Source: a virus
IMG/VR virus record: IMGVR_UViG_3300020421_000171
Location: 1 to 21,296 of that record
Reading direction: 5' to 3' (one strand)
DNA length: 21,296 nt
Under the pieces are notes generated by a model. That model did not search any database. It was not told the DNA's origin and worked only from the letters and a program-made list of their open reading frames with translations. The translations under genes and the position numbers were made by a program. Shown one piece after another: positions 4,737 through 18,170 of this stretch (its first letter is position 1; each line of letters starts with the position of its first letter).

Positions 4737-5750
4737 ATGTCAGCAGAAACTAAAGCATTTCAACCAACTCCAGAACTGACTGATCTTTTAGTCAAGTCTG
4801 GTTCACAGCACAGAGAAACTTCTCTTGCAGCTAATGCAGAGTTTGCAAAAGCGCTTGAGCAGCCACTCCGTCAAGGTGTACTTAGTGGAAACATCCTCGA
4901 TGGTATCTTTGAACCAATTCAGTTGGCTCAGAGTGCTACTCCTGAGTTCCCACTTGATTTCTTAGCCCCAGGTACAGAAAAGGACTTTGTTGCCTATACT
5001 ATACCTAATCATGGCTATATTCCAGAACGTCACGTCGAAGGCGATTACGTCATGGTTCCTACTTTTGATATCGGTGCAAGCATCGACTATCTCTTAAAGT
5101 ATGCCCGTGATGCTCGTTGGGACGTAGTCGGTCGTGCAATGGAAGTTCTTGAAGCTTCCTTTGTCAAGAAGATGAATGACGATGGATGGCACACGCTGCT
5201 TGCAGCTGGTGTTGATCGTAACATCGTTGTTTATGATAGCGATGCAGCTAGTGGTCAGTTCACTAAGAGACTCGTTTCTCTTCTTAAGACTGTCATGCGT
5301 CGTAACGGTGGTGGCAACTCTGCCAGCAATAACAGAGGTGCTCTTACCGATTTGTATGTCTCTCCAGAAGCTATGGAAGACATTCGTAACTGGGGTGTTG
5401 ATCAGGTTGATGAAGTTACTCGTCGTGAAATCTATACCGCTGCTGATGGTAGCGTCAATAGAGTATTCGGTGTTAACTTGCATGATCTAGACGAGCTTGG
5501 CAATGGCCAAGAATACCAGAACTTCTACGGCACTACTTTAGGTGCTGGAATGCCTTCTGGTCACAACACTGAAATTGTTGTTGGTCTTGATCTTCGCAAG
5601 AGAGACAGCTTCATCATGCCAGTGCGTGAGCCAGTACAGATCTACGAAGACGATACCCTTCATCGTCAGAAGAGAGCTGGCTTCTATGGTTGGGCTGAGC
5701 AGGGCTTTGCTGTTCTCGATAACAGAAGAGTTCTTCTTGGTTCTCTATAA
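4737..5750 (+). CDS. Major capsid protein, HK97 fold
   Basis: A 337-residue protein predicted to be the main shell subunit. The N-terminal arm (about 1-50) is helical and followed by an extended segment with FVAYTIPNHGYIPERH (84-99), matching the E-loop and beta region of HK97-fold capsid proteins. A long helix at about 112-155 (DARWDVVGRAMEVLEASFV) is a good candidate for the spine helix. The block from about 203 to 255 (TDLYVSPEAMEDIRNWG onward) resembles the A domain. No N-terminal delta domain is present, consistent with a separate scaffold. It follows the decoration gene by 23 bases with a strong GGGAGA site and is followed by a strong terminator, as expected for the most highly expressed virion gene. 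Codons appear to end in C or G more often than in the fibre genes. Confidence 0.88.
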   Translation: MSAETKAFQPTPELTDLLVKSGSQHRETSLAANAEFAKALEQPLRQGVLSGNILDGIFEPIQLAQSATPEFPLDFLAPGTEKDFVAYTIPNHGYIPERHVEGDYVMVPTFDIGASIDYLLKYARDARWDVVGRAMEVLEASFVKKMNDDGWHTLLAAGVDRNIVVYDSDAASGQFTKRLVSLLKTVMRRNGGGNSASNNRGALTDLYVSPEAMEDIRNWGVDQVDEVTRREIYTAADGSVNRVFGVNLHDLDELGNGQEYQNFYGTTLGAGMPSGHNTEIVVGLDLRKRDSFIMPVREPVQIYEDDTLHRQKRAGFYGWAEQGFAVLDNRRVLLGSL

Positions 5751-5857: not shown

Positions 5858-6262
5858 ATGGGAGCAAGTCTTTACAATTTTGAGATTGAACAAGGCTCAT
5901 CATTCAAAATGTCTTTGATTTATAAAGACAGTGCTGGAGCCGTTATAGATTTAACTGGTTGGTGTGCTAGGCTTACTTGGAGAACTAGTGCCAATTTGAC
6001 ACAAACCTATAAAAGTGGTAATACTGATAAAACTAGTTATGATTTTAATATAGAAGGACCTACAGGTAAAATTAATTTATTATTTCCTGCTAATACTACA
6101 AATGGATTTGATTTTAATACAGCTAAATATGATTTAGAATTACAGTCCGATGAAGATCATTACAGCCAAGGTGGTAAATTTGTTATTAGGCTACTGTATG
6201 GAACTGTAACTATACAGAGGCGATATAGTAAATCTAATCAAGCCTTGGAGTGTAATACCTAA
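5858..6262 (+). CDS. Small beta-rich fibre-associated protein, copy A
   Basis: A 134-residue protein that looks like a single beta sandwich: FEIEQGSSFKMSLIYKD, then DLTGWCARLTW, a hydrophobic strand ending GKINLLFPA, YDLELQ, and a final strand GTVTIQRRYS. It is clearly paralogous to the protein encoded at 17742-18170, sharing the L-T-x-W-C-A-R-L-x-W and YDLELQ blocks. The layout is similar to small Ig-like or baseplate-upper-protein N-terminal domains found near phage fibre genes, but that assignment is tentative. It starts after the terminator, and its stop overlaps the next start (TAATG), suggesting translational coupling. It may be a fibre adaptor or accessory baseplate protein. Confidence 0.5.
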   Translation: MGASLYNFEIEQGSSFKMSLIYKDSAGAVIDLTGWCARLTWRTSANLTQTYKSGNTDKTSYDFNIEGPTGKINLLFPANTTNGFDFNTAKYDLELQSDEDHYSQGGKFVIRLLYGTVTIQRRYSKSNQALECNT

Positions 6263-6575: not shown

Positions 6576-9500
6576 ATGCCAGTTAATAATGTAATTAAAT
6601 TAAGAAGAGGGGATGATTGGAGTAATAATCCTGTATTAGCAGAAGGCGAACCAGGGTTTGATACTACTAATAATATTCTAAAAGTAGGGGATGGAACTAC
6701 AGCATGGAATGATTTAAATCCTATAGGTAGTGGATTAAATTATTTACAATCTCATCCTAATATATCAGCAGCAGCAAGTTCATCAGATAATAGTGGTCGT
6801 ACATATATTCAGGATGTTTTGCTTGATGATAATGGTCATGTTATAGGTCTTAGTACGGCTACAGAATCAGGTTCTACTGTAGAAACAGATACTTTAGCAA
6901 CAGTTACGGCTAGAGGCAATAGCACAACTACAAATTGTATTATCCCCTTTTACTATGCTAATCAAGCCGCCTTTCCTAGTGCTACTACATATCATGGAGC
7001 AATAGCCCATAGTCACAGTGACGGGGCAATGTATTTTGCACACGGTGGTGCGTGGCATAGGTTAGCAAATAGTGATGACCCGGAATCTAATGATTTATCT
7101 TCATCTGTTACTTGGGCTAATGTACCAGATACCAATATTACTGAAAGTTCTGTTATCCAACATACTGGGGCATTTAGAGTTACAGAATCTCAAATAGTAG
7201 ATTTACAAAATTATTTAACATCATTCACAGAAACCAATGATTTGTCTTCAGCAGTTACATGGACTAATGTGCCAGATGCTAATATAACTGAAAGTTCTGT
7301 TGTTCAACACACTGGAGCATTCACAATTAAAGAGTCTCAAGTTGTTGACCTGAAATCTTATTTGACTTCTGAAAGTAATGATTTGTCTGCTGCTGTAGTA
7401 TGGGCTAATGTTCCTGATTCTAACATTACAGAAAGCTCAGTAGTTCAACATACAGGTGCTTTACTAATAACTGAATCTCAGATAGTAGACCTGCAAAATT
7501 ATTTAACTTCTCATCCTACTATAGCATCAGCTGCTTCTTCTTCTGATAATAGTGGTAGAACTTATATACAAGATATTTTATTAGATAGTAATGGTCACGT
7601 AATAGGTATAACTACAGCTACAGAAACTGTTACAGATACTAATACAGAATATACAGCAGGAACAGGACTATCGTTAGAGAGTACGGAATTCAATATAAAT
7701 CCTGACTTAATTAATAGCAGAACAGAAGTGACTAGTGAAGATTCGGATTATTTATTAATTTGGGATGCTACAGATTCACAACTTAAAAAGGTAGATGCTG
7801 GTGAGTTTAGAGGTGGAGGAGGAGGAGCTACTCTGACACAAGAAGAGGTTGAAGATTTTGTAGGAGGTATGGTCACTGGTAATACTGAAACAGGTATCAC
7901 CGTAACTTATCAAGACGCTGACGGAACCTTAGATTTCGTAGTAGCATCACAGACAGATGAAAACTTTACTACAGCAGATCACAGTAAACTAGATGGTATA
8001 GAAGCAGGGGCAGACGTTACTGACACTGCTAATGTTACTTCTGCTGGCGCTCTTATGGATTCAGAAGTCACAAACTTATCGCAGGTTAAGGCATTTGATT
8101 CCTCAGATTACGCTACTGCCGCCCAAGGTACCAAAGCTGATACAGCACAACAGCCACCGTCTGAAGGAGCTTTTGTAGACGGAGATAAAACTAAGCTTGA
8201 TGGTATCGAAGCCTCTGCTGACGTTACTGATACAGCTAATGTTAATGCAGCTGGTGCTGTAATGAACAGTGATACTACAACTGTTGATATGAGTTTTGTC
8301 ATAGACGAAGATAATATGACATCAAATTCAGATACCAAGGTTCCAACACAGCAATCTGTTAAGGCTTATGTAGATGCCAATGGTGGTGGAGGCGGTATTT
8401 CTAACATTGTAGAGGATACAACTCCACAGTTAGGTGGCAATCTAGATGCACAATCAAATAATATTAGTTCAGTAGGATCTCTGACCGCTACATCATTGAT
8501 TAAATCTGGTGGCACATCTTCACAGTTCCTTAAGGCTGATGGAAGTGTTGATACTAATACTTATCTTACTTCGTTTACAGAAACCAACGACCTGTCTGCT
8601 GCTGTTACGTGGACTAATGTTCCAGATGCAAATATTACACAAGGCTCTGTAACACAACATCAAGCTGCTTTGAGTATTACGGAATCACAGATCAGTGATT
8701 TACAATCGTATTTAACTTCTTATACAGAAACAGATACTTTAGCTAATGTTACATCTAGAGGAAATACGACTACCACTACTTGTGTCATACCTTTCTTATA
8801 TGCTAATCAGGCTGCTTTCCCAAATGCCAGTACATATCATGGGGCTATAGCTCATAGTCATAGCGATGGTGCGATGTATTTTGCTCATGGTGGTAATTGG
8901 ATTAAATTAGCAAATGATAGTGATATATTAAATGAAGAAAAAGTAGAGGACTTTGTTGGAGGTATGTTAACAGGTAATACTGAGACAGGTATTACAGTTA
9001 CATATGACGATAGCGATGGAACTATTGATTTTGTTGTGGCTAGTCAAACAGACGAAAATTTTACAACTGCTGATCACAGCAAGTTGGATGGTATTGAAGC
9101 AGGTGCAGACGTTACTGACACAACCAATGTCACTACTGCTGGTGCTTTGATGGACTCCGAGGTTACAAATCTGTCACAAGTTAAGGCTTTTGATTCCTCA
9201 GATTACGCAACTGCTGCACAAGGAACAAAAGCTGATAGCGCACAGCAACCACCATCAGAAGGTGCGTTTGTAGACGGAGACAAAACTAAATTAGATGGTA
9301 TTGAAGCCAACGCAGATGTTACAGATACGGCAAATGTGACTTCAGCTGGAGCATTAATGGACAGCGAGTTAACAGACTTAGCTGGTGTTAAAGGAGTCAC
9401 GATATCTACATTGCAAGTGAAGCCATCTGAAGGAGCATTCGCTGATGGAGACAAGACAAAGCTAGATGCTATTGAAGCAGGTGCGAATGTAACAGACGCA

Positions 9501-12500
9501 ACTAATGTTGACGCAGCTGGTGCAGTAATGAATAGTGACACTTCTACTGCTAGCATGAGTTTTGTAGTTGATGAAGACAATATGTCGTCTGATTCAGATA
9601 CTAAGGTTCCTACACAACAGTCGGTAAAAGCTTTTGTTGAGAATGCTGGTTATTTAACTGCACATCCAAATATTAGTGCTGCAAATTCTTCTGATAACAG
9701 TGGTAATACTTTCATACAAGATATTACTCTAGATAGTAATGGACATGTTACTGATATAGCTGTAGCTACAGCTACTGATGGAGGTGGTGGAGGAGGTATT
9801 AGTAATGTAGTTGAAGATACAACACCACAACTTGGCGGTGACTTAGGTCTTAATTCTAAAGATATAACCGGTACGGGTCATATAGACATAACTGGATCTG
9901 GACACTTTAGTGCAAAAGTTGAAGCTGATAGTTTTGTTAAAGATGGTGGTACATCTAGTCAATTCCTAAAGGCTGACGGTAGTGTAGATACCAATACGTA
10001 TTCTACTACAGACACACAGCTTACAGAAGAACAGGTAGAAGACTTTGTTGGAGGTATGGTCACAGGAAATACCGAGACAGGCATTACAGTAACATATGAC
10101 GACAGCGATGGTACATTAGATTTCGTAGTAGCTAGTCAAACTGATGAAAACTTTACAACAGCAGATCACGCTAAACTTGATGGTATAGAGGCTAGCGCGG
10201 ATGTAACCGATACGGCTAATGTTACTAGTGCAGGTGCTTTGATGGACTCAGAAGTAACAAACTTGTCGCAAGTTAAAGCTTTTGATTCTTCAGATTACGC
10301 CACCGCTGCACAAGGCACTAAAGCTGACAGTGCTCAGCAACCCCCATCTGAGGGAGCATTTGCAAATGGAGATAAAACCAAATTAGATGGTATTGAGGCT
10401 TCTGCTGACGTAACAGACACAGCGAATGTCACTAGTGCTGGTGCTCTTATGGATTCTGAAGTTACTAATCTGGCACAAGTTAAAGCTTTTGACTCCTCAG
10501 ACTATGCTACTGCCGCACAAGGAACAAAAGCCGATAGCGCACAACAGCCACCATCAGAAGGTGCATTTGTTGATGGAGATAAAACTAAACTAGACGCAAT
10601 TGAGGCTAATGCTACTGCTGATCAAACAGACGAAGAAATACAAGATATCGTTGGGGCTATGCTCTCAAGCAATACCGAAACAGGTATTACAGTAACTTAT
10701 CAAGATGCTGATGGCACTATTGATTTTGTTGTTTCGTCTCAAACAGATGAGAATTTTACTACAGCAGACCACAGTAAGTTAGATGGTATTGAAGCTAGCG
10801 CAGATGTCACAGACACAGCTAACGTAACCTCTGCTGGTGCTTTGATGGATAGTGAATTAGCCAGTATTGCTGACGTTAAAGCACTAGATCAATCAGTTAT
10901 AGCAGGTGCTTCGCCTAACTTTGCTACTACTAATATGACGGATGCATCTGATAAAAGATTTATGACAGATGCTCAAGAAACTAAATTGGATTCAGTTGAG
11001 AGTAGTGCAGATGTCACAGATACTGCTAATGTAACTGCCGCAGGAGCCTTAATGGACAGTGAACTAACTGACCTTGCAGGCGTTAAAGGTGTTACAATTT
11101 CTACGTTACAATCTAAACCTTCAGAGGGTGCTTTTGCTAATGGTGACAAAACTAAGCTTGATGGTATTGAAGCCAATGCTACAGCAGATCAGACAGATGA
11201 AGAAATACAAGATATTGTTGGAGCAATGGTTTCTAGTAACACCGAGACAGGAATAACTGTCACATATCAAGACGCTGATGGAACCTTAGACTTTGTAGTT
11301 GATCATGATGCTGCTAATAATTTTGTAGCTAACGAACATATAGATCATACTAGTGTTACTTTAACGGCTGGTGATGGTCTTACTGGTGGTGGGGACATTA
11401 GTGCTAATAGAACATTTGCTGTTAGTGTTGATGATAGTACTATAGAAATTAATAGTGATGCTTTAAGAATTAAAGATGGTGCAATAACTTCTGCTAAGAT
11501 AGGGGCAGGTGGGTTTGTCTTTAATGAAGCTGGCGCTTCTGTTGACTTTAGGGTTGAGGGAGATACTGACGCAAATCTATTATTTATAGATGGAAGTACA
11601 GATAGAGTTGGTATTGGTACAAATGCACCAGCATATCTTTTAGATGTTGATGGAGCAATAGGAGCAGATAGTATCACAGTTGGTGAATCAAATAAATATC
11701 TTAGTATGTTACGATCCACCGGAGGTACTTTTGGTATTGGTCGCATCCATGAACTACTTGGAACGTTTGAAGTTATGGTTGGTGCAAATACTGCCGCAGT
11801 AGAAATTACTAACCATAGTGTAGGTAGTCCTGTTGTAACTATTAATCCTGCTGGTATAGATATGGATTTTATAGTAGAAGGAGATACAGATACAGATTTA
11901 TTATTCTGTGATGCTGGAAATGATATTGTACAAATTGGCAAATTAAATATCAACGGAGCTTTTACACTACCTACAACAGATGGTTCTGCAAATCAGATAT
12001 TAAAGACCGATGGTTCTGGAAACGTTTCGTGGGCTGCTGATGGAGGAAGTGGAAGTTCTCTTACTGAAGAAGAAGTTGAAGATTTTGTTGGAGGCATGGT
12101 TACTGGGAACACAGAAACTTTTATTACTGTTACTTATGAAGATTCTGATGGAACACTTGATTTTGTTGTTCCCGTAAAAGATGAAGATAATATGGCTTCT
12201 GATAGCGCTACACACTTAGCTACACAGCAGTCTATTAAAGCTTATGTCGATGCAAATGCTGGTGGTGGTAGTACAAGTGTTGCTGCAATAAGTGCTAATG
12301 CTACCATTTCTTCTGATGTTAATTTGGTTACCACTGCTAATACAGATAGAACAGTAACTCTTCCCAGTGTATCTTCTGGTAAAATAGTTCGTATTAAAAA
12401 GGTTGATGCTGGTACAGGAACTGTGATTATTGCAAGAAGTGGTTCATCGACTATTGATGGTGCTACACAAGTTGCTTTGTATTCACAATTTGAAAGTATG

Positions 12501-12539
12501 ACAATTATTTGTGATGGCACAAATTGGCATGTATTTTAA
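6576..12539 (+). CDS. Giant modular repeat tail fibre/adhesin (1987 aa)
   Basis: A likely trimeric fibre or receptor-binding structural protein. Residues 1-50 (KLRRGDDWSNNPVLAEGE, then LKVGDGTTAWNDL) match the N-terminal domain found in major-tropism-determinant-like and many marine phage fibre proteins. The body is built of repeat families: NDLS..VTWTNVPD..IT units near residues 172, 221, 268 and 671; a 60-residue His-containing block at 106-165 and 721-780; EEVEDFVGGM..NTETGITVTY units near 423, 787, 1151, 1353, 1542 and 1831; and ADVTDTANV..AGALMDSE units with KLDGIEA. Residues about 1640-1700 carry FRVEGDTDANLLF and RVGIGTNAP, a common marine fibre motif. The C-terminus (TDRTVTLPS to DGTNWHVF) resembles known fibre ends. 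No S74 peptidase chaperone domain is seen. Gly-rich hinges occur near 415, 605, 1070 and 1905. Starts after ATAGGAT, about nine bases from ATG. Confidence 0.85.
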   Translation: MPVNNVIKLRRGDDWSNNPVLAEGEPGFDTTNNILKVGDGTTAWNDLNPIGSGLNYLQSHPNISAAASSSDNSGRTYIQDVLLDDNGHVIGLSTATESGSTVETDTLATVTARGNSTTTNCIIPFYYANQAAFPSATTYHGAIAHSHSDGAMYFAHGGAWHRLANSDDPESNDLSSSVTWANVPDTNITESSVIQHTGAFRVTESQIVDLQNYLTSFTETNDLSSAVTWTNVPDANITESSVVQHTGAFTIKESQVVDLKSYLTSESNDLSAAVVWANVPDSNITESSVVQHTGALLITESQIVDLQNYLTSHPTIASAASSSDNSGRTYIQDILLDSNGHVIGITTATETVTDTNTEYTAGTGLSLESTEFNINPDLINSRTEVTSEDSDYLLIWDATDSQLKKVDAGEFRGGGGGATLTQEEVEDFVGGMVTGNTETGITVTYQDADGTLDFVVASQTDENFTTADHSKLDGIEAGADVTDTANVTSAGALMDSEVTNLSQVKAFDSSDYATAAQGTKADTAQQPPSEGAFVDGDKTKLDGIEASADVTDTANVNAAGAVMNSDTTTVDMSFVIDEDNMTSNSDTKVPTQQSVKAYVDANGGGGGISNIVEDTTPQLGGNLDAQSNNISSVGSLTATSLIKSGGTSSQFLKADGSVDTNTYLTSFTETNDLSAAVTWTNVPDANITQGSVTQHQAALSITESQISDLQSYLTSYTETDTLANVTSRGNTTTTTCVIPFLYANQAAFPNASTYHGAIAHSHSDGAMYFAHGGNWIKLANDSDILNEEKVEDFVGGMLTGNTETGITVTYDDSDGTIDFVVASQTDENFTTADHSKLDGIEAGADVTDTTNVTTAGALMDSEVTNLSQVKAFDSSDYATAAQGTKADSAQQPPSEGAFVDGDKTKLDGIEANADVTDTANVTSAGALMDSELTDLAGVKGVTISTLQVKPSEGAFADGDKTKLDAIEAGANVTDATNVDAAGAVMNSDTSTASMSFVVDEDNMSSDSDTKVPTQQSVKAFVENAGYLTAHPNISAANSSDNSGNTFIQDITLDSNGHVTDIAVATATDGGGGGGISNVVEDTTPQLGGDLGLNSKDITGTGHIDITGSGHFSAKVEADSFVKDGGTSSQFLKADGSVDTNTYSTTDTQLTEEQVEDFVGGMVTGNTETGITVTYDDSDGTLDFVVASQTDENFTTADHAKLDGIEASADVTDTANVTSAGALMDSEVTNLSQVKAFDSSDYATAAQGTKADSAQQPPSEGAFANGDKTKLDGIEASADVTDTANVTSAGALMDSEVTNLAQVKAFDSSDYATAAQGTKADSAQQPPSEGAFVDGDKTKLDAIEANATADQTDEEIQDIVGAMLSSNTETGITVTYQDADGTIDFVVSSQTDENFTTADHSKLDGIEASADVTDTANVTSAGALMDSELASIADVKALDQSVIAGASPNFATTNMTDASDKRFMTDAQETKLDSVESSADVTDTANVTAAGALMDSELTDLAGVKGVTISTLQSKPSEGAFANGDKTKLDGIEANATADQTDEEIQDIVGAMVSSNTETGITVTYQDADGTLDFVVDHDAANNFVANEHIDHTSVTLTAGDGLTGGGDISANRTFAVSVDDSTIEINSDALRIKDGAITSAKIGAGGFVFNEAGASVDFRVEGDTDANLLFIDGSTDRVGIGTNAPAYLLDVDGAIGADSITVGESNKYLSMLRSTGGTFGIGRIHELLGTFEVMVGANTAAVEITNHSVGSPVVTINPAGIDMDFIVEGDTDTDLLFCDAGNDIVQIGKLNINGAFTLPTTDGSANQILKTDGSGNVSWAADGGSGSSLTEEEVEDFVGGMVTGNTETFITVTYEDSDGTLDFVVPVKDEDNMASDSATHLATQQSIKAYVDANAGGGSTSVAAISANATISSDVNLVTTANTDRTVTLPSVSSGKIVRIKKVDAGTGTVIIARSGSSTIDGATQVALYSQFESMTIICDGTNWHVF
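6891..7070 (+). repeat. His-containing fibre block, copy 1
   Basis: Encodes residues 106-165 of the giant fibre. It shares 49 of 60 residues with the copy at 8736-8915, including YHGAIAHSHSDGAMYFAHGG. The HSH (H145, H147) plus H156 recall the HxH motifs that hold iron ions in the T4 gp37 fibre tip, although metal binding here is inference. Confidence 0.8.
7842..12180 (+). repeat. EEVEDFVGGM/ADVTDTANV repeat array in fibre gene
   Basis: Six copies of a roughly 37-residue unit (EE...DxVGxM..xNTETxITVTYxDxDGTxDFVV) start at 7842, 8934, 10026, 10632, 11199 and 12066. Interleaved are FTTADH.KLDGIEA..ADVTDTANV units and four copies of a 40-codon block starting at 8094, 9189, 10281 and 10488. Amino acid identity between copies is very high while synonymous positions differ widely. 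The array makes up most of the shaft, and unit number could change by recombination. Confidence 0.85.
8736..8915 (+). repeat. His-containing fibre block, copy 2
   Basis: Encodes residues 721-780 of the giant fibre and is the partner of the block at 6891-7070. The eleven residue differences lie outside the central His-rich core, which is identical over at least 16 residues, suggesting functional constraint on that core. Confidence 0.8.
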
Positions 12540-12571: not shown

Positions 12572-14260
12572 ATGAAAAGCATAATACTACAAACAAATGA
12601 CACGGCTATTACTGCTGATGATCAATTAGGACAAATACAATTTGCTGCATCTTCTGAATCTGATGGAAGCGCAGCACAGGATGTGTCTGCTAAAATCGAA
12701 GCTGTTGCTGAAGCAGCTTTTGGATCAGCTTCGCACTCTACAGCTCTTACATTTTCTACTGCTACTACAGACGCAAATGCTCCCGCAGAAAGAGTTAGAA
12801 TTAGTAATGATGGAAAGGTTGGAGTAGGTAGTAACAGTCCTTCATTTAAATTACATGTTAATGGAGATATTGGATTAACTAATGAAGGATTTTATGCTTC
12901 TCCTACAGGTGTCAAAATAGGAACAGATGGCGTACTTATTAATGATGGTCAGACTACATTATCACATGGTAATTTTAGTGCTGATGGAGATGCACAATCT
13001 AGTTCTTATATCCTAAGATGCACAACCACAAATGCTACGTTTACTACAGCGCAAAATAATGGAGCTGATATAGTAGTGCCTAATGATACTAGTATTATGT
13101 TTATAGCTAATATTACTGGTAGAAGAACTGATCAAGTTAATGCCTCCACTAACGACAATGCTAGTTATACACTTATAGGATTATTACATAATGATGGAGG
13201 AGGTATAGCTCTATTAGGTAGTGTTTCAAAAACAGTAATAGCAGAAACTGATAGTAATTGGGATGTTCAAGCTACTGTTACAGGAACTGGTTCTTCTGGT
13301 AGCGATAAATTAAATATACAATGTAAAGGTGCCTCGTCTAAAACTGTAAACTGGGTAGTTAAACTAGAAACGGTAGAGGTTAAGGGTGGAGAACATGTTG
13401 CAGGTTCCGCACTGTTTACTAGTAGTCAAAGTAGTACTGGAACAGGATCAGCAGCAGATCCATTTATTGTTGCTAGTGATCAAATAGCTAATGCTAGTGT
13501 ATTTACGGTTGCAGATATTACAGATCAAAAATATATGGTTATTCGAGCAGATTGTGGAGTTAATGACCAGAGTGGTCAAGATGATAATGCATTTTTTAAC
13601 TTTGTAAAAGGTGGTAGTATTGTAGATACTGTCACTGCTCCGCAGTCGGCAGTGACTTACTTTTACAGTTGTATTGCAAGCGTGAACGATGTTTATGGAT
13701 TCTCAACAACTGACAATCCTGGAGATATGGACATAACTAGTTGTCGAGCATTTATAGTGACAGCTGCTTCAAGTTTTACTATTACAAAAATCAGTGATGG
13801 TAGTAATGGAACTGGTTGGGCTAAGTTGCAAATCCCTAGAGCTGATACATTCCCTACAGCAATTGGGAATCATGGAGTTATGTTAAAGATTTCTGGCAAT
13901 GTAGTTAGAGGAGGTAGTAATAGAGCTTTTACAGGAGCAAAATGTGTTATAACGACTATTAGTTCCGGAGTGACTGATCCAACCCCTAGACAAAAGTATA
14001 ATACTGTTACGCGAAATACTACTACTGCAGGTAATGGTAGTGCTCATGGAACAGAAACCGTTGCCGGTAATAGTGTTCCAATCAGTTTCAAAGCTAGTAA
14101 CGTTGGTAGTGATAGTTTTATAGAGTTTAGAAATAATAATGCTTATGCTATGAACAATCTTACTGTAACTGTAGAAGCATTAACAGATGAATTTGAAGAA
14201 TGTTCAGTTAGTAGTAACTCTTTAACAATGTCTACTGGTACATGGGGAGATGATGACTAA
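12572..14260 (+). CDS. Fibre-like structural protein, long paralog (562 aa)
   Basis: The first 275 or so residues are closely similar to the whole product of 15944-16822, from MKSIILQTNDTAITA through the RRTD..NASTNDNA block to KLNIQCKGASSKTVNWV. The segment RVRISNDGKVGVGSNSP followed by LHVNGDI is the GIGT-type repeat widespread in marine phage fibre proteins and in proteins ending in chaperone domains. Residues about 280-562 form an extra beta-rich domain found only in this copy, with several Cys residues and no family I recognise. It could be a distinct receptor-binding head. The start has a good purine-rich site (AGAAGGAAAG). Its stop codon overlaps the start of the oxygenase-like gene (TAATG), so the fibre and cassette are translationally linked. 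Confidence 0.7.
   Translation: MKSIILQTNDTAITADDQLGQIQFAASSESDGSAAQDVSAKIEAVAEAAFGSASHSTALTFSTATTDANAPAERVRISNDGKVGVGSNSPSFKLHVNGDIGLTNEGFYASPTGVKIGTDGVLINDGQTTLSHGNFSADGDAQSSSYILRCTTTNATFTTAQNNGADIVVPNDTSIMFIANITGRRTDQVNASTNDNASYTLIGLLHNDGGGIALLGSVSKTVIAETDSNWDVQATVTGTGSSGSDKLNIQCKGASSKTVNWVVKLETVEVKGGEHVAGSALFTSSQSSTGTGSAADPFIVASDQIANASVFTVADITDQKYMVIRADCGVNDQSGQDDNAFFNFVKGGSIVDTVTAPQSAVTYFYSCIASVNDVYGFSTTDNPGDMDITSCRAFIVTAASSFTITKISDGSNGTGWAKLQIPRADTFPTAIGNHGVMLKISGNVVRGGSNRAFTGAKCVITTISSGVTDPTPRQKYNTVTRNTTTAGNGSAHGTETVAGNSVPISFKASNVGSDSFIEFRNNNAYAMNNLTVTVEALTDEFEECSVSSNSLTMSTGTWGDDD
13631..13656 (+). other. Intragenic hairpin in long fibre paralog
   Basis: GTCACTGC and GCAGTGAC form a perfect eight-base-pair stem around a ten-base loop inside the coding sequence, encoding part of the unique C-terminal domain. 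The downstream TTACTTTTACAG is only weakly T-rich, so a terminator is unlikely. A coincidental structure or a pause site are the alternatives. Confidence 0.3.
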
Positions 14261-14667
14261 TGGATGATAGGTCTTTATCTGTTAAACCATTAAGAGGTAA
14301 TAAGGGCTGTCGTCGTGCGGATATTCCAGATTTCTTGGCAGAAAATAGAAACATAACAGGTGGTTTTGAATATGGTCCTGGAGATCAACAACAATGGCAC
14401 ACTAATTGGAGTATGCCTGGAGCAAGATGTTATCTTGTTTGGTCTGAAGATGGCAATAGTGGTATGAGGTTTATAAGAGATGGTGAGATTGTAACATCTA
14501 AAGATGTAGTAGGATGGCAATATAGAATATTTAATGTTCCTCAACCTCATTGCGTATTCGCAGACTGTAAAAGATTTAGTTATGGATGGTATTTAGAAGA
14601 AACAGATAATGAAATTATTTTTCCTATAGGACTTGAAAATGCTGAAGCTGTATTACAATTTGCCTAA
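14260..14667 (+). CDS. 2-oxoglutarate/Fe(II) oxygenase-like protein, copy A
   Basis: A 135-residue protein that looks like the core double-stranded beta-helix of the 2OG-Fe(II) oxygenase superfamily. The segment [24 protein letters not shown] carries the first metal-binding position (H47, with N49 at the HxD place). PQPHCVFADCKRFSYGW gives the distal His (H97) and the Arg (R105) that usually binds 2-oxoglutarate. Such enzymes hydroxylate proteins, nucleic acids or small molecules. Asn instead of Asp at the second ligand is unusual and could reduce or change activity. The paralog at 15470 has the same Asn. The copy is short, lacking about 35 N-terminal residues compared with its paralog. GGGGAGA lies nine bases before the ATG. 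The substrate cannot be read from sequence. Confidence 0.58.
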   Translation: MDDRSLSVKPLRGNKGCRRADIPDFLAENRNITGGFEYGPGDQQQWHTNWSMPGARCYLVWSEDGNSGMRFIRDGEIVTSKDVVGWQYRIFNVPQPHCVFADCKRFSYGWYLEETDNEIIFPIGLENAEAVLQFA

Positions 14668-15203: not shown

Positions 15204-15476
15204 ATGCCACATGTAGTAGCTGAACCATGTTTTGCTTGTAAGTATACAGACTGCGTTGTAGTTTGTCCTGTTGAATGTTTTTATGAAGGACAGCAGATGG
15301 TCTATATTCATCCAGATGAGTGTATCGATTGTGAAGCATGTGTTCCAGAATGTCCGGTAGAAGCTATTTTTAGTGAACAGGATTTACCAGAAGAATGGAA
15401 ACCTTTTGCAGAGTTAAATCGTGAAATGGCACCACAAATGCCTGTTATTACAGACAAAAAGGATCCTTTATGTTAG
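15204..15476 (+). CDS. fdxA: Seven-iron ferredoxin, FdxA/Azotobacter FdI type
   Basis: A 90-residue ferredoxin carrying low-potential electrons. The cysteine pattern matches Azotobacter vinelandii FdI shifted by one residue. C9, C17 and C50 correspond to the [3Fe-4S] ligands, and C21, C40, C43 and C46 to the [4Fe-4S] ligands; C12 and C25 match its non-ligand cysteines. Diagnostic segments are [18 protein letters not shown] and [19 protein letters not shown]. The region after the clusters ([10 protein letters not shown], then ITDKKDPL) also follows the FdI family, but the protein ends at that point with a Cys, without the roughly 15-20-residue tail of the bacterial protein. GGAGAAG precedes the start, which lies one base after the sulfotransferase stop. 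Phage ferredoxins known from cyanophages are mostly plant-type [2Fe-2S], so this type is unusual. Redox partner unknown. Confidence 0.92.
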
Positions 15477-15934
15477 TTGATAAAATAGATCCTATACAAA
15501 TTATTAATAATTTAAATACTGAGGCCTTTATGGATTGGGGTGAGGATTTTTCTTTTGATGATTTATTTAAAAAACCAGACTTACATAATGAGAGATATAA
15601 AGCTGCTTTTGTTAAAAGATATAAACCATATAAAAATAATAACATAGCAAGAGAATTATTTGGAGATAGAGTAACTAATTTTATAGTATATCCTCCATAT
15701 GGTGGTATGAGTTGGCATACAAATGGCCCTAAAAAGTCTAAAAGAATGTATATAAGTTGGTCAGAAGATGGTAATAGTGGGATGAGTTGGTATGACACAG
15801 AAAAAGACGAGCTAATAGTAGATCAAGATGATCAAGGTTGGAATGTTAGATTTTTTGATATACCAACTTGGCATTGTGTTTGGAGTAAATGTTATAGACT
15901 TGCCATAGGATATAATGTAATGCGTGAGGTGTAA
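15470..15934 (+). CDS. 2-oxoglutarate/Fe(II) oxygenase-like protein, copy B
   Basis: A 154-residue paralog of the 14260-14667 product. Shared blocks are [20 protein letters not shown] and HCV...C.R...GY. Proposed metal ligands are H83 and H135, with N85 in the place of the usual Asp. R143 is the likely 2-oxoglutarate Arg. The N-terminal 60 residues are extra relative to copy A and may help close the fold. The start overlaps the ferredoxin stop by seven bases, with AAAAAGGAT upstream, so the two are translationally coupled. Such oxygenases need Fe(II) and 2-oxoglutarate and usually do not require a ferredoxin, so proximity to the ferredoxin does not prove partnership. Could be a catalytically altered cupin instead. 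Confidence 0.58.
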
Positions 15935-15943
15935 TAAGTAACT

Positions 15944-16822
15944 ATGAAAAGTATAATATTACAAACAAACGATACAGCGATTACTGCTACAGATCAGCTA
16001 GGGCAGATACAGTTTGCTGCTTCTTCTGAATCTGATGGAAGTGCAGCGACAGACGTATCTGCTAAGATAGAGGCCGTTGCTGAAGCTACTTTCGCTGCCG
16101 CTTCTCATTCAACAGCAATTGCTTTTTCTACTGCAACCACCGATGCTAATGCACCATCTGAAAAAGTTAGAATTAGTAATGATGGTTCTTTAGGTATTGG
16201 TACAACCAGTTCTTCGTATAAAGTACATATAAATGGAGATGTAGGTCTTACAAACGAAGGTTTCTATGCCTCTCCTACTGGAGTTATGTTGGGTGTTGAC
16301 GGTTTTTTATATAATGATGGTCAAACAACATTATCTCATGGAAGATTTGGTACTGATGGGGATGCTCAAAATAGCACTTACATTCTAAGAGGTACTACAA
16401 CTAATGCTACTTTTACCACAATTCAAAATAATGGAGCCCATGTTAAATTAGCTTCTAATAGAAGTATGATGTTTACTGCTCATATAATAGGAAGAAGAAC
16501 AGATTCAATTACTGGTTCTACAAATGATAATGCAGCTTATATTTTAAAGGGATCTATATTTAATGATGGATATGGTGCTGCTATAGTAGGTAGTGTGACA
16601 AAGACTGTTATAGCTGAAACTGATAGCAATTGGGACGTCCAAGCTACTATTACTGGTGGAGGAGCTGGTCAAACAGACCAAATTAATATACAGTGTAAGG
16701 GTGCTAGCTCTAAAACTGTAAATTGGGTAATTAAATTAGAATTATTAGAGGTTGGAGGAAATGTCACTGGATATACAGAAGCCAATATATTAGAAAATGT
16801 CAGTCCTACAATTATACCATAA
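15944..16822 (+). CDS. Fibre-like structural protein, short paralog (292 aa)
   Basis: Aligns with the first 275 residues or so of the 12572-14260 product along its length, with MKSIILQTNDTAITA, RVRISNDG-like and GIGTTSSSYKVHINGDV blocks, and ends in a short unique tail (ENVSPTIIP). It lacks the extra C-terminal domain of the long copy. The RISNDGSLGIGT segment is the GIGT-type marine fibre repeat. It follows the second oxygenase-like gene by nine bases, with only a weak purine-rich stretch upstream. The two paralogs therefore bracket the four-gene cassette. Probably a fibre component or an alternative adhesin lacking a tip domain. Confidence 0.68.
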   Translation: MKSIILQTNDTAITATDQLGQIQFAASSESDGSAATDVSAKIEAVAEATFAAASHSTAIAFSTATTDANAPSEKVRISNDGSLGIGTTSSSYKVHINGDVGLTNEGFYASPTGVMLGVDGFLYNDGQTTLSHGRFGTDGDAQNSTYILRGTTTNATFTTIQNNGAHVKLASNRSMMFTAHIIGRRTDSITGSTNDNAAYILKGSIFNDGYGAAIVGSVTKTVIAETDSNWDVQATITGGGAGQTDQINIQCKGASSKTVNWVIKLELLEVGGNVTGYTEANILENVSPTIIP

Positions 16823-17741: not shown

Positions 17742-18170
17742 ATGGCAGCAGCAGATTATAGCTTTACTATAGAAAAAGGTACAGCTTTCGTAATTTCTTT
17801 TGAATATAAAGACGACAATAATAATGCAATTAATTTAACTAATTGGTGTGCTAGATTAAGATGGAAAGACAATAATGATGCTATTACAACATTTAATAGT
17901 AATCATACAGGTAATGACTATGAGTTTGTAATAGAACCCTTAACTGGTCAGATAACCTTAAAGATACCAGCTTCTGTAACAGCTGCCTATAGTTTCACAA
18001 ATGCATCTTATGATTTAGAATTACAAGAACCTAACGACCTATATAGTGGTGGAGGTAAAAAAGTATTTAGAATTTTACAAGGAACTATTACAACCATAGA
18101 ACGTAATGTTTCTGATACTGATGCTTTTAATTGTAATTTTGATTCTCAAGATGATTGTGAAACCTGTTAA
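17742..18170 (+). CDS. Small beta-rich fibre-associated protein, copy B
   Basis: A 142-residue paralog of the 5858-6262 product. Shared features are FTIEKGTAF, YKDDNN, NLTNWCARLRW, GQITLKIPA, YDLELQ and the GTITTIERNVS final strand, with a Cys-containing tail (CNFDSQDDCETC) unique to this copy. Both copies directly precede a fibre gene and both overlap the following start by one base (TAATG), which suggests a shared job in fibre attachment or assembly. A GAGGA site lies upstream. The family is not certain; a baseplate-associated Ig-like fold is plausible. Confidence 0.5.
   Translation: MAAADYSFTIEKGTAFVISFEYKDDNNNAINLTNWCARLRWKDNNDAITTFNSNHTGNDYEFVIEPLTGQITLKIPASVTAAYSFTNASYDLELQEPNDLYSGGGKKVFRILQGTITTIERNVSDTDAFNCNFDSQDDCETC

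Follow-up and report, generated by a model that had tools for sequence, protein, structure and literature searches.

Nearly all module copies in the tail-fibre gene of the virus record IMGVR_UViG_3300020421_000171 (IMG/VR, an uncultured bacterial virus; the 21,296 bases analyzed are called the window here) are paralogs in which the protein is kept and the synonymous sites are randomized, and the closest relatives of these copies at the DNA level are mostly found in other phages, not among their neighbors in the same gene. We consider it likely that they are old, protein-conserved paralogs whose codons were scrambled by mutation, with no need for selection on the spelling of the DNA. The duplications would then predate the divergence of these phages, the amino acids would be held by purifying selection on the fibre structure, and mutation alone may have scrambled the codons.

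Repeat architecture of the fibre gene

Roughly six types of protein module make up the fibre, the majority of them in several copies, and at the protein level these repeats are far beyond chance. The gene was classed as a tail fibre on its two PHROG matches and on an Mtd_N domain above its cut-off; these family matches suggest a putative host-binding function. The elements are as follows.

6576-12539, + strand: tail-fibre gene, open reading frame (ORF) of 1987 amino acids containing every repeat (PHROG tail fiber phrog_24456, E=1.2e-114; also phrog_892)
6594-6701, + strand: Mtd_N N-terminal domain, amino acids 7-42 (PF18454, 44.4 bits, cut-off 26.3)
6872-7070, + strand: W unit copy 1 (family D6); copy 2 at 8717-8915
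7083-7531, + strand: series of three X units, 147 and then 141 nt apart (family D4, tandem repeats)
7530-7629, + strand: Z unit (family D8); other copies at 6771-6870 and 9678-9777
7833-8279, + strand: module copy 1 (V+U units), about 149 codons, ungapped, 0.89 amino acid identity to 8928 and 10020
7842-7985, + strand: V unit, 48 amino acids (unit hidden Markov model, HMM); other starts at 8937, 10029, 10632, 11199 and 12069
8094-8213, + strand: 40-codon block, copy 1
8580-8740: fourth X unit (family D4)
8928-9392, + strand: module copy 2, 155 codons, 0.91 amino acid identity to 10020
9189-9308, + strand: 40-codon block, copy 2
10020-10484, + strand: module copy 3, 155 codons (ungapped repeat comparison)
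10281-10400, + strand: 40-codon block, copy 3
10359-10628, + strand: further tandem copy, 90 codons, 84% amino acid identity to 7965, 9060 and 10152
10488-10607, + strand: 40-codon block, copy 4
10605-11180, + strand: diverged copy, 192 codons, 68% amino acid identity to 8910

The V unit HMM matches at amino acids 423, 788, 1152, 1353, 1542 and 1832, and a tandem period of 207 nt runs across 10173-10608. Structure prediction of a single V+U module from a 15-row alignment was useless (mean predicted local distance difference test score, pLDDT, 49.3; predicted template modeling score, pTM, 0.13). A diversity-generating retroelement, brought to mind by the Mtd_N name, was set aside because the changes are mostly synonymous; no search aimed at a reverse transcriptase was made.

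Synonymous saturation within the gene

Expected codon sharing was taken as the number of identical codons if synonymous codons were redrawn from the gene's own codon usage, and sharing was expressed as f, scaled so that chance gives 0 and agreement of every synonymous codon gives 1. The initial annotation had described a 40-codon block at 8094, 9189, 10281 and 10488, and each of these starts falls in the reading frame of the fibre ORF. Between the first two copies it had counted 15 synonymous differences and one amino acid change, which is exactly what we obtained (15 synonymous and 1 nonsynonymous codon differences, 18 nt). Among the six pairs divergence is lowest for this one, with 24/39 codons shared for 19.0 expected; the remaining five differ by 16-22 synonymous and 1-3 nonsynonymous codons, and over the four blocks 118/228 codons are shared compared to 110.5 expected. 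The proposed comparison of nonsynonymous (dN) with synonymous (dS) divergence, carried out on the six pairs by the Nei-Gojobori method, gave proportions of synonymous differences (pS) of 0.56-0.87, dS from 1.02 to not computable and dN of 0.011-0.050, in line with the very low dN/dS at near-saturated dS that had been anticipated.

The 40-codon blocks are slices of the larger modules, ungapped repeats of 149-155 codons with 89-91% amino acid identity starting at 7833, 8928 and 10020. The top-scoring pair, 8928/10020, shares 67 codons for 65.9 expected at 91% amino acid identity, with a dS beyond the correction range. That other repeat units behave in the same way was likewise borne out: 56 within-gene diagonals with a score of at least 100, which overlap and are thus not independent, gave a mean z of 0.09 with a standard deviation of 0.91, one z above 2 and none below -2. 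The W copies share 26 codons for 25.8 expected and the X units of the window are at chance or slightly above; the sole exception to the saturation pattern is the Z-type pair 7527/9675 (18/25 shared, z 3.0). The longest exact repeat within the gene is 20 nt. As codon sharing corresponds to a random draw while the protein is kept, the synonymous sites are saturated.

Age of the copies relative to other phages

Relatives were collected as protein-similar loci in viral contigs (best 80 of 459), and seven of them carry matching structural genes (L001, L002, L003, L004, L005, L006 and L011). In L002 and L005 the fibre is truncated by the contig end, and the fibre of L004 is represented by a single ORF piece. 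In L004 the fibre frame at 9176-11181 is in pieces (254 and 415 amino acids), through a frameshift, an assembly error or a real split. Genes that precede the fibre in the window include the following.

424-2592: portal protein (phrog_2739)
4737-5750: HK97-type capsid, weak match below cut-off

Between the window and L003, dS is 0.29-0.61 in eight of the nine structural or neighboring genes and 0.97 in the ninth (gene 18170). Portal dS to the window is 1.26-1.53 for L001, L002, L006 and L011, and portal codon sharing is above chance with L001 (284/471 for 226 expected) and near chance with L004 (241/465 for 223 expected). Synonymous divergence among copies within the one fibre gene therefore exceeds the portal divergence of most relatives. 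Over segments of at least 30 codons, within-gene sharing amounts to 1162 codons in the window for 1132 expected, 1223 for 1234 in L001, 644 for 651 in L002, 614 for 623 in L003, 38 for 31 in L005 (two segments), 171 for 179 in L006 and 290 for 325 in L011. The number of U units differs, with seven in the window and in L001, five in L002, where the contig end cuts the gene, and four in L003.

The window capsid protein had no match in the phage isolate collection, and no isolate of this phage group was found there. Its capsid relatives at 85-99% identity (L091-L170, best 80 of at least 600) lie on contigs of about 4 to 244 kilobases (kb).

Paralogous versus orthologous copies

Unit profiles (U, V, W, X and Z) were applied to eight fibre genes, some of them partial, and pairs below 75% amino acid identity were excluded. 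The 88 within-gene pairs share 1836/3924 codons where 1832 are expected (f 0.002, mean dN 0.102), and the 473 cross-gene pairs that are not reciprocal-best share 10236/21519 for 10010 expected (f 0.020, mean dN 0.102). The 135 reciprocal-best pairs share 4536/6122 codons for 2827 expected (mean dN 0.047), and their high f of 0.519 is partly built in, as this class is selected by codon sharing itself. Support independent of that choice comes from the segments shared between the window and six relatives, which lie in collinear chains in 20/20 cases at z of at least 4 and in 33/34 cases at z of at least 3, the exception being in L005.

Since within-gene and cross-gene copies are alike in both f and dN, neither homogenization nor avoidance is visibly acting inside the gene. 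This bears directly on concerted evolution, in which gene conversion would keep the copies of one gene alike. Same-gene copies are indeed alike in protein and switches between copies occur (see below), but they are no closer in codons or dN than non-orthologous copies from different genes. In trees of unit DNA, no clustering of the U or V copies by gene was seen: gene-label changes numbered 26 for U (shuffles 19-26, mean 23.2) and 19 for V (shuffles 14-21, mean 18.0), the label count alone being used because many forks are poorly supported. Concerted evolution is thus contradicted for U and V, with Z pairs too few to judge, and we regard it as extremely improbable for this gene.

The nearest codon neighbor of a unit lies in its own gene for 4/52, 3/140, 0/4, 3/17 and 0/17 units, where 2.9, 2.9, 0.5, 2.4 and 1.6 are expected, in the same order, from a random draw from the pool. 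For this set, 11 of 87 loci or records were dropped because they held no qualifying ORF, 16 of 76 ORFs were removed as near-duplicates, and unit matches covering less than 70% of the seed and pairs below 60% identity were removed. A within/between comparison by amino acid class over the 76 ORFs was dropped as the main argument, since its between class includes orthologs and near-duplicate contigs, which raise the values.

The closeness of these counts to a random draw would also suit an origin by import, in which the modules were not duplicated in this lineage and diverged copies were acquired singly from other phages. Phages of Prochlorococcus, Synechococcus, Roseobacter and Mycobacterium do carry related modules, and amino acids 421-900 of the window fibre match L003 at any one offset over about 66 codons at most. 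The strong DNA matches follow the same order as in the relatives, however, as vertical descent gives, and we find import rather unlikely.

Several observations weigh against old paralogs scrambled by mutation, besides the built-in part of the reciprocal-best value. Within-gene f by type is -0.033 for U, -0.005 for V, 0.015 for W (one pair), 0.074 for X and 0.254 for Z (five pairs); the Z units are above chance within genes (94/160 codons for 72 expected) and the X units slightly so (248/495 for 228 expected), so that full saturation is not universal. In L004 the structural genes themselves approach saturation (portal dS 2.11), so the group overall is not young. Orthologous fibre segments have a dN/dS of about 0.09-0.15 (0.41-0.49 in the N-terminal 72 codons), and at such ratios a dN that stays as low as 0.1 once dS is saturated needs a plateau at a few tolerant sites. 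Finally, no clearly young duplicate was seen, which birth-and-death evolution alone does not predict.

Exact repeats and the search for young copies

The scarcity of young copies could also be read as selection for DNA stability, in which slippage or homologous recombination removes modules from fibres with identical copies and only scrambled copies persist, a natural codon scrambling. Exact repeats were compared with 200 synonymous shuffles per gene (60 for the fibre of S-CREM2). The window has ten 18-mer repeats compared to 28.0 in shuffles (15/200 as low) and no 21-mer repeat compared to 11.1 (12/200 as low), a weak deficit, and L011 shows a weak deficit at 18 nt (0 compared to 7.5, 26/200 as low). 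At 18-21 nt the counts for L003, L005 and L006 are close to those of their shuffles, but L001 and L002 lie above theirs, and the 21-mer repeats of all seven group genes add up to 63 for 43.7 expected. Outside the group, seven of eight fibres have a large exact-repeat excess (S-CREM2, MA01, L008, L041, L050, L015 and L018) and the fibre of CRP-207, with few repeats, has a slight one; complete scrambling is thus not common to these other fibres.

Young copies were counted in 60 deduplicated fibre ORFs among pairs of at least 70% amino acid identity. None of the 603 within-gene pairs had f above 0.8, compared to 21/6317 pairs between genes; about two would be expected at the between-gene rate, so the zero is not significant by itself. 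An f above 0.5 was reached by 22/603 within-gene pairs, of which 14 are in S-CREM2 and one is in the window (Z type, 34 codons, f 0.50), and by 318/6317 between-gene pairs; in the eight fibre genes of the group it was reached by none of the 88 within-gene unit pairs. Pooled f within and between genes was 0.18 and 0.11 at 70-80% identity, 0.16 and 0.24 at 80-90%, and 0.03 (6 pairs) and 0.59 (152 pairs) at 90% or more. The higher within-gene sharing in the 70-80% class speaks against any general avoidance.

The absence of near-identical pairs, the repeat deficit of the window and the recombination between copies described below are what selection for DNA stability would produce. Against it stand the lack of clear avoidance beyond saturation, the excess repeats in L001, L002 and, by far, the seven outside fibres, and the compatibility of the zero count with the between-gene rate; we judge it unlikely, and equally doubt that scrambling of its DNA is a precondition for a module to persist in multiple copies, identical ones recombining out. 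The initial annotation had left two explanations side by side. The first, strong constraint on old repeats at the protein level, is upheld by the saturated synonymous sites, the dN of about 0.1 and the strong DNA matches to other phages in the same order. Selection against DNA identity, in the sense of codon choice that avoids it, is not supported by the within- and cross-gene f values or by the 21-mer counts of the group.

Short-read assembly could leave a similar picture, if contigs break at near-identical repeats and only scrambled fibres remain visible. The window and its close relatives are IMG/VR records, two of which end inside the fibre, and of the 15 relatives with at least 92% identity in the major capsid protein (MCP), among the matches listed, ten stop no more than 6 kb downstream of the MCP gene. 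Eight end within 6 kb upstream, however, so that the difference is small, and contigs of the same collection retain exact repeats of 43, 55 and 65 nt (L008, L041 and L018), well beyond the longest one in the window. The long tail fibre of S-CREM2 (L083) comes from an isolate and is, like the window fibre, a very long repetitive marine phage fibre without near-identical copies: over 4703 fibre codons examined, 0/277 pairs of at least 70% identity had f above 0.8. It differs from the window fibre in that codon sharing is clearly above chance (pooled f 0.23) and the exact-repeat excess is large. An assembly filter appears quite improbable as the source of the pattern.

In-register switches between copies

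The copies do switch in register now and then, with the exchange taking place either within one gene or between phages. At amino acids 608-759 of L001, the left part matches window copy 1 (26 codons to 3) and the right part copy 2 (29 to 12); the switch keeps the register of both copies, which are offset by 365 codons, and was reproduced in 0/5000 permutations. A scan of seven genes gave 13 switches at no more than 2 of 2000 permutations, and a repeat with another random stream gave 12 hits at 11 places in 1708 tests. When the targets were synonymously shuffled, six control runs produced 0, 0, 1, 1, 2 and 2 hits of 1548-1592, from which one or two of the 12 hits may be due to chance. Near the 13 switches, the longest exact runs shared today by the two source copies are 9-23 nt. 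Frequent copy exchange had been named as evidence contrary to old, constrained repeats; in-register switches do occur, but the gene is not homogenized by them.

The records behind L003, L011 and L004 gave no match to the RecA and ERF models, nor did these and the record behind L001 to the DNA_pol_A model; the records are possibly fragments, so that nothing follows from either result.

Breadth of the modules and comparison with known systems

A tblastn search with the window fibre hit 108 phage records, including 71 of Mycobacterium, 19 of Prochlorococcus and 7 of Synechococcus. Codon sharing is at chance with Roseobacter phage CRP-207 (gene guanine-cytosine content, GC, 0.49; 57 codons, 88% amino acid identity) and with Mycobacterium phage Constella (gene GC 0.65; 72 codons, 75% amino acid identity), which speaks for a deep-reaching constraint on the protein. 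The fibre gp28 of cyanophage P-SCSP1u (PDB 8i4m) has a module in common with the window fibre (E=4.8e-20) but, unlike it, a single within-gene repeat match; in the part consulted, the P-SCSP1u paper resolves the N-terminal part of the fibre, not the distal fibre (PMC10575957).

Polyubiquitin is a known case of conserved repeats with scrambled synonymous sites, attributed to birth-and-death evolution under purifying selection (Nei et al. 2000, as cited in the consulted part of PMC10457151). This is disputed, the same part of PMC10457151 arguing for concerted evolution in Plasmodium. Like polyubiquitin as described there, the window fibre repeats conserved protein units within a single gene while their synonymous sites have diverged widely, with protein constraint as the explanation; unlike it, codon sharing is at chance, no births are clearly young and the copies match those of other phages. 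The fibre works like a birth-and-death system with births that are old or purged: the protein is conserved at saturated synonymous sites (Z excepted), copies group with those of relatives and copy number varies, whereas recent births were not found in the fibres examined. The Brucella trimeric autotransporter BatA is likewise a fibrous surface protein with a repeated module, but the consulted part of its description holds no synonymous analysis of the repeats (PMC7688925). Designers recode tandem repeats synonymously to obtain DNA compatible with the polymerase chain reaction, according to the part consulted of PMC10096509. Among the matches listed from the open-licence PMC literature, the titles and the opening lines of the abstracts contained nothing on synonymous divergence of phage fibre repeats.

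Neighboring genes

Outside the fibre, the genes at 12572-14260 and 15944-16822 are paralogous (272 amino acids, 74% identity) with codon sharing at chance (105 for 100.9 expected), which is the pattern of old paralogs. Amid the tail genes, 15204-15476 encodes a 4Fe-4S ferredoxin of 90 amino acids resembling FdxA (NF045490, 120.5 bits, cut-off 135), possibly an auxiliary metabolic gene. It is flanked by two small paralogous proteins without Pfam match (14260-14667 and 15470-15934; 38% identity over 81 amino acids). The best match of the 17742-18170 protein in L002, L004, L005 and L006 is a gene of the type found at 5858-6262 of the window (43-45% identity); the 17742-18170 protein has a weak LtfC-like match.

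Significance

We rate the fibre as a sound, well-defined example of an already known type of evolution. It offers a clean viral case of conserved protein repeats with almost wholly randomized synonymous sites, in which constraint, homogenization and avoidance of DNA identity, often mixed together, can be separated. If identical copies were in fact purged, the gene would represent nature's version of the designers' synonymous recoding, which also stabilizes repeats, with recombination capping repeat identity. The switches indicate that scrambled copies still exchange parts at the short exact identities seen today, and this bears on how phage fibres change in length.

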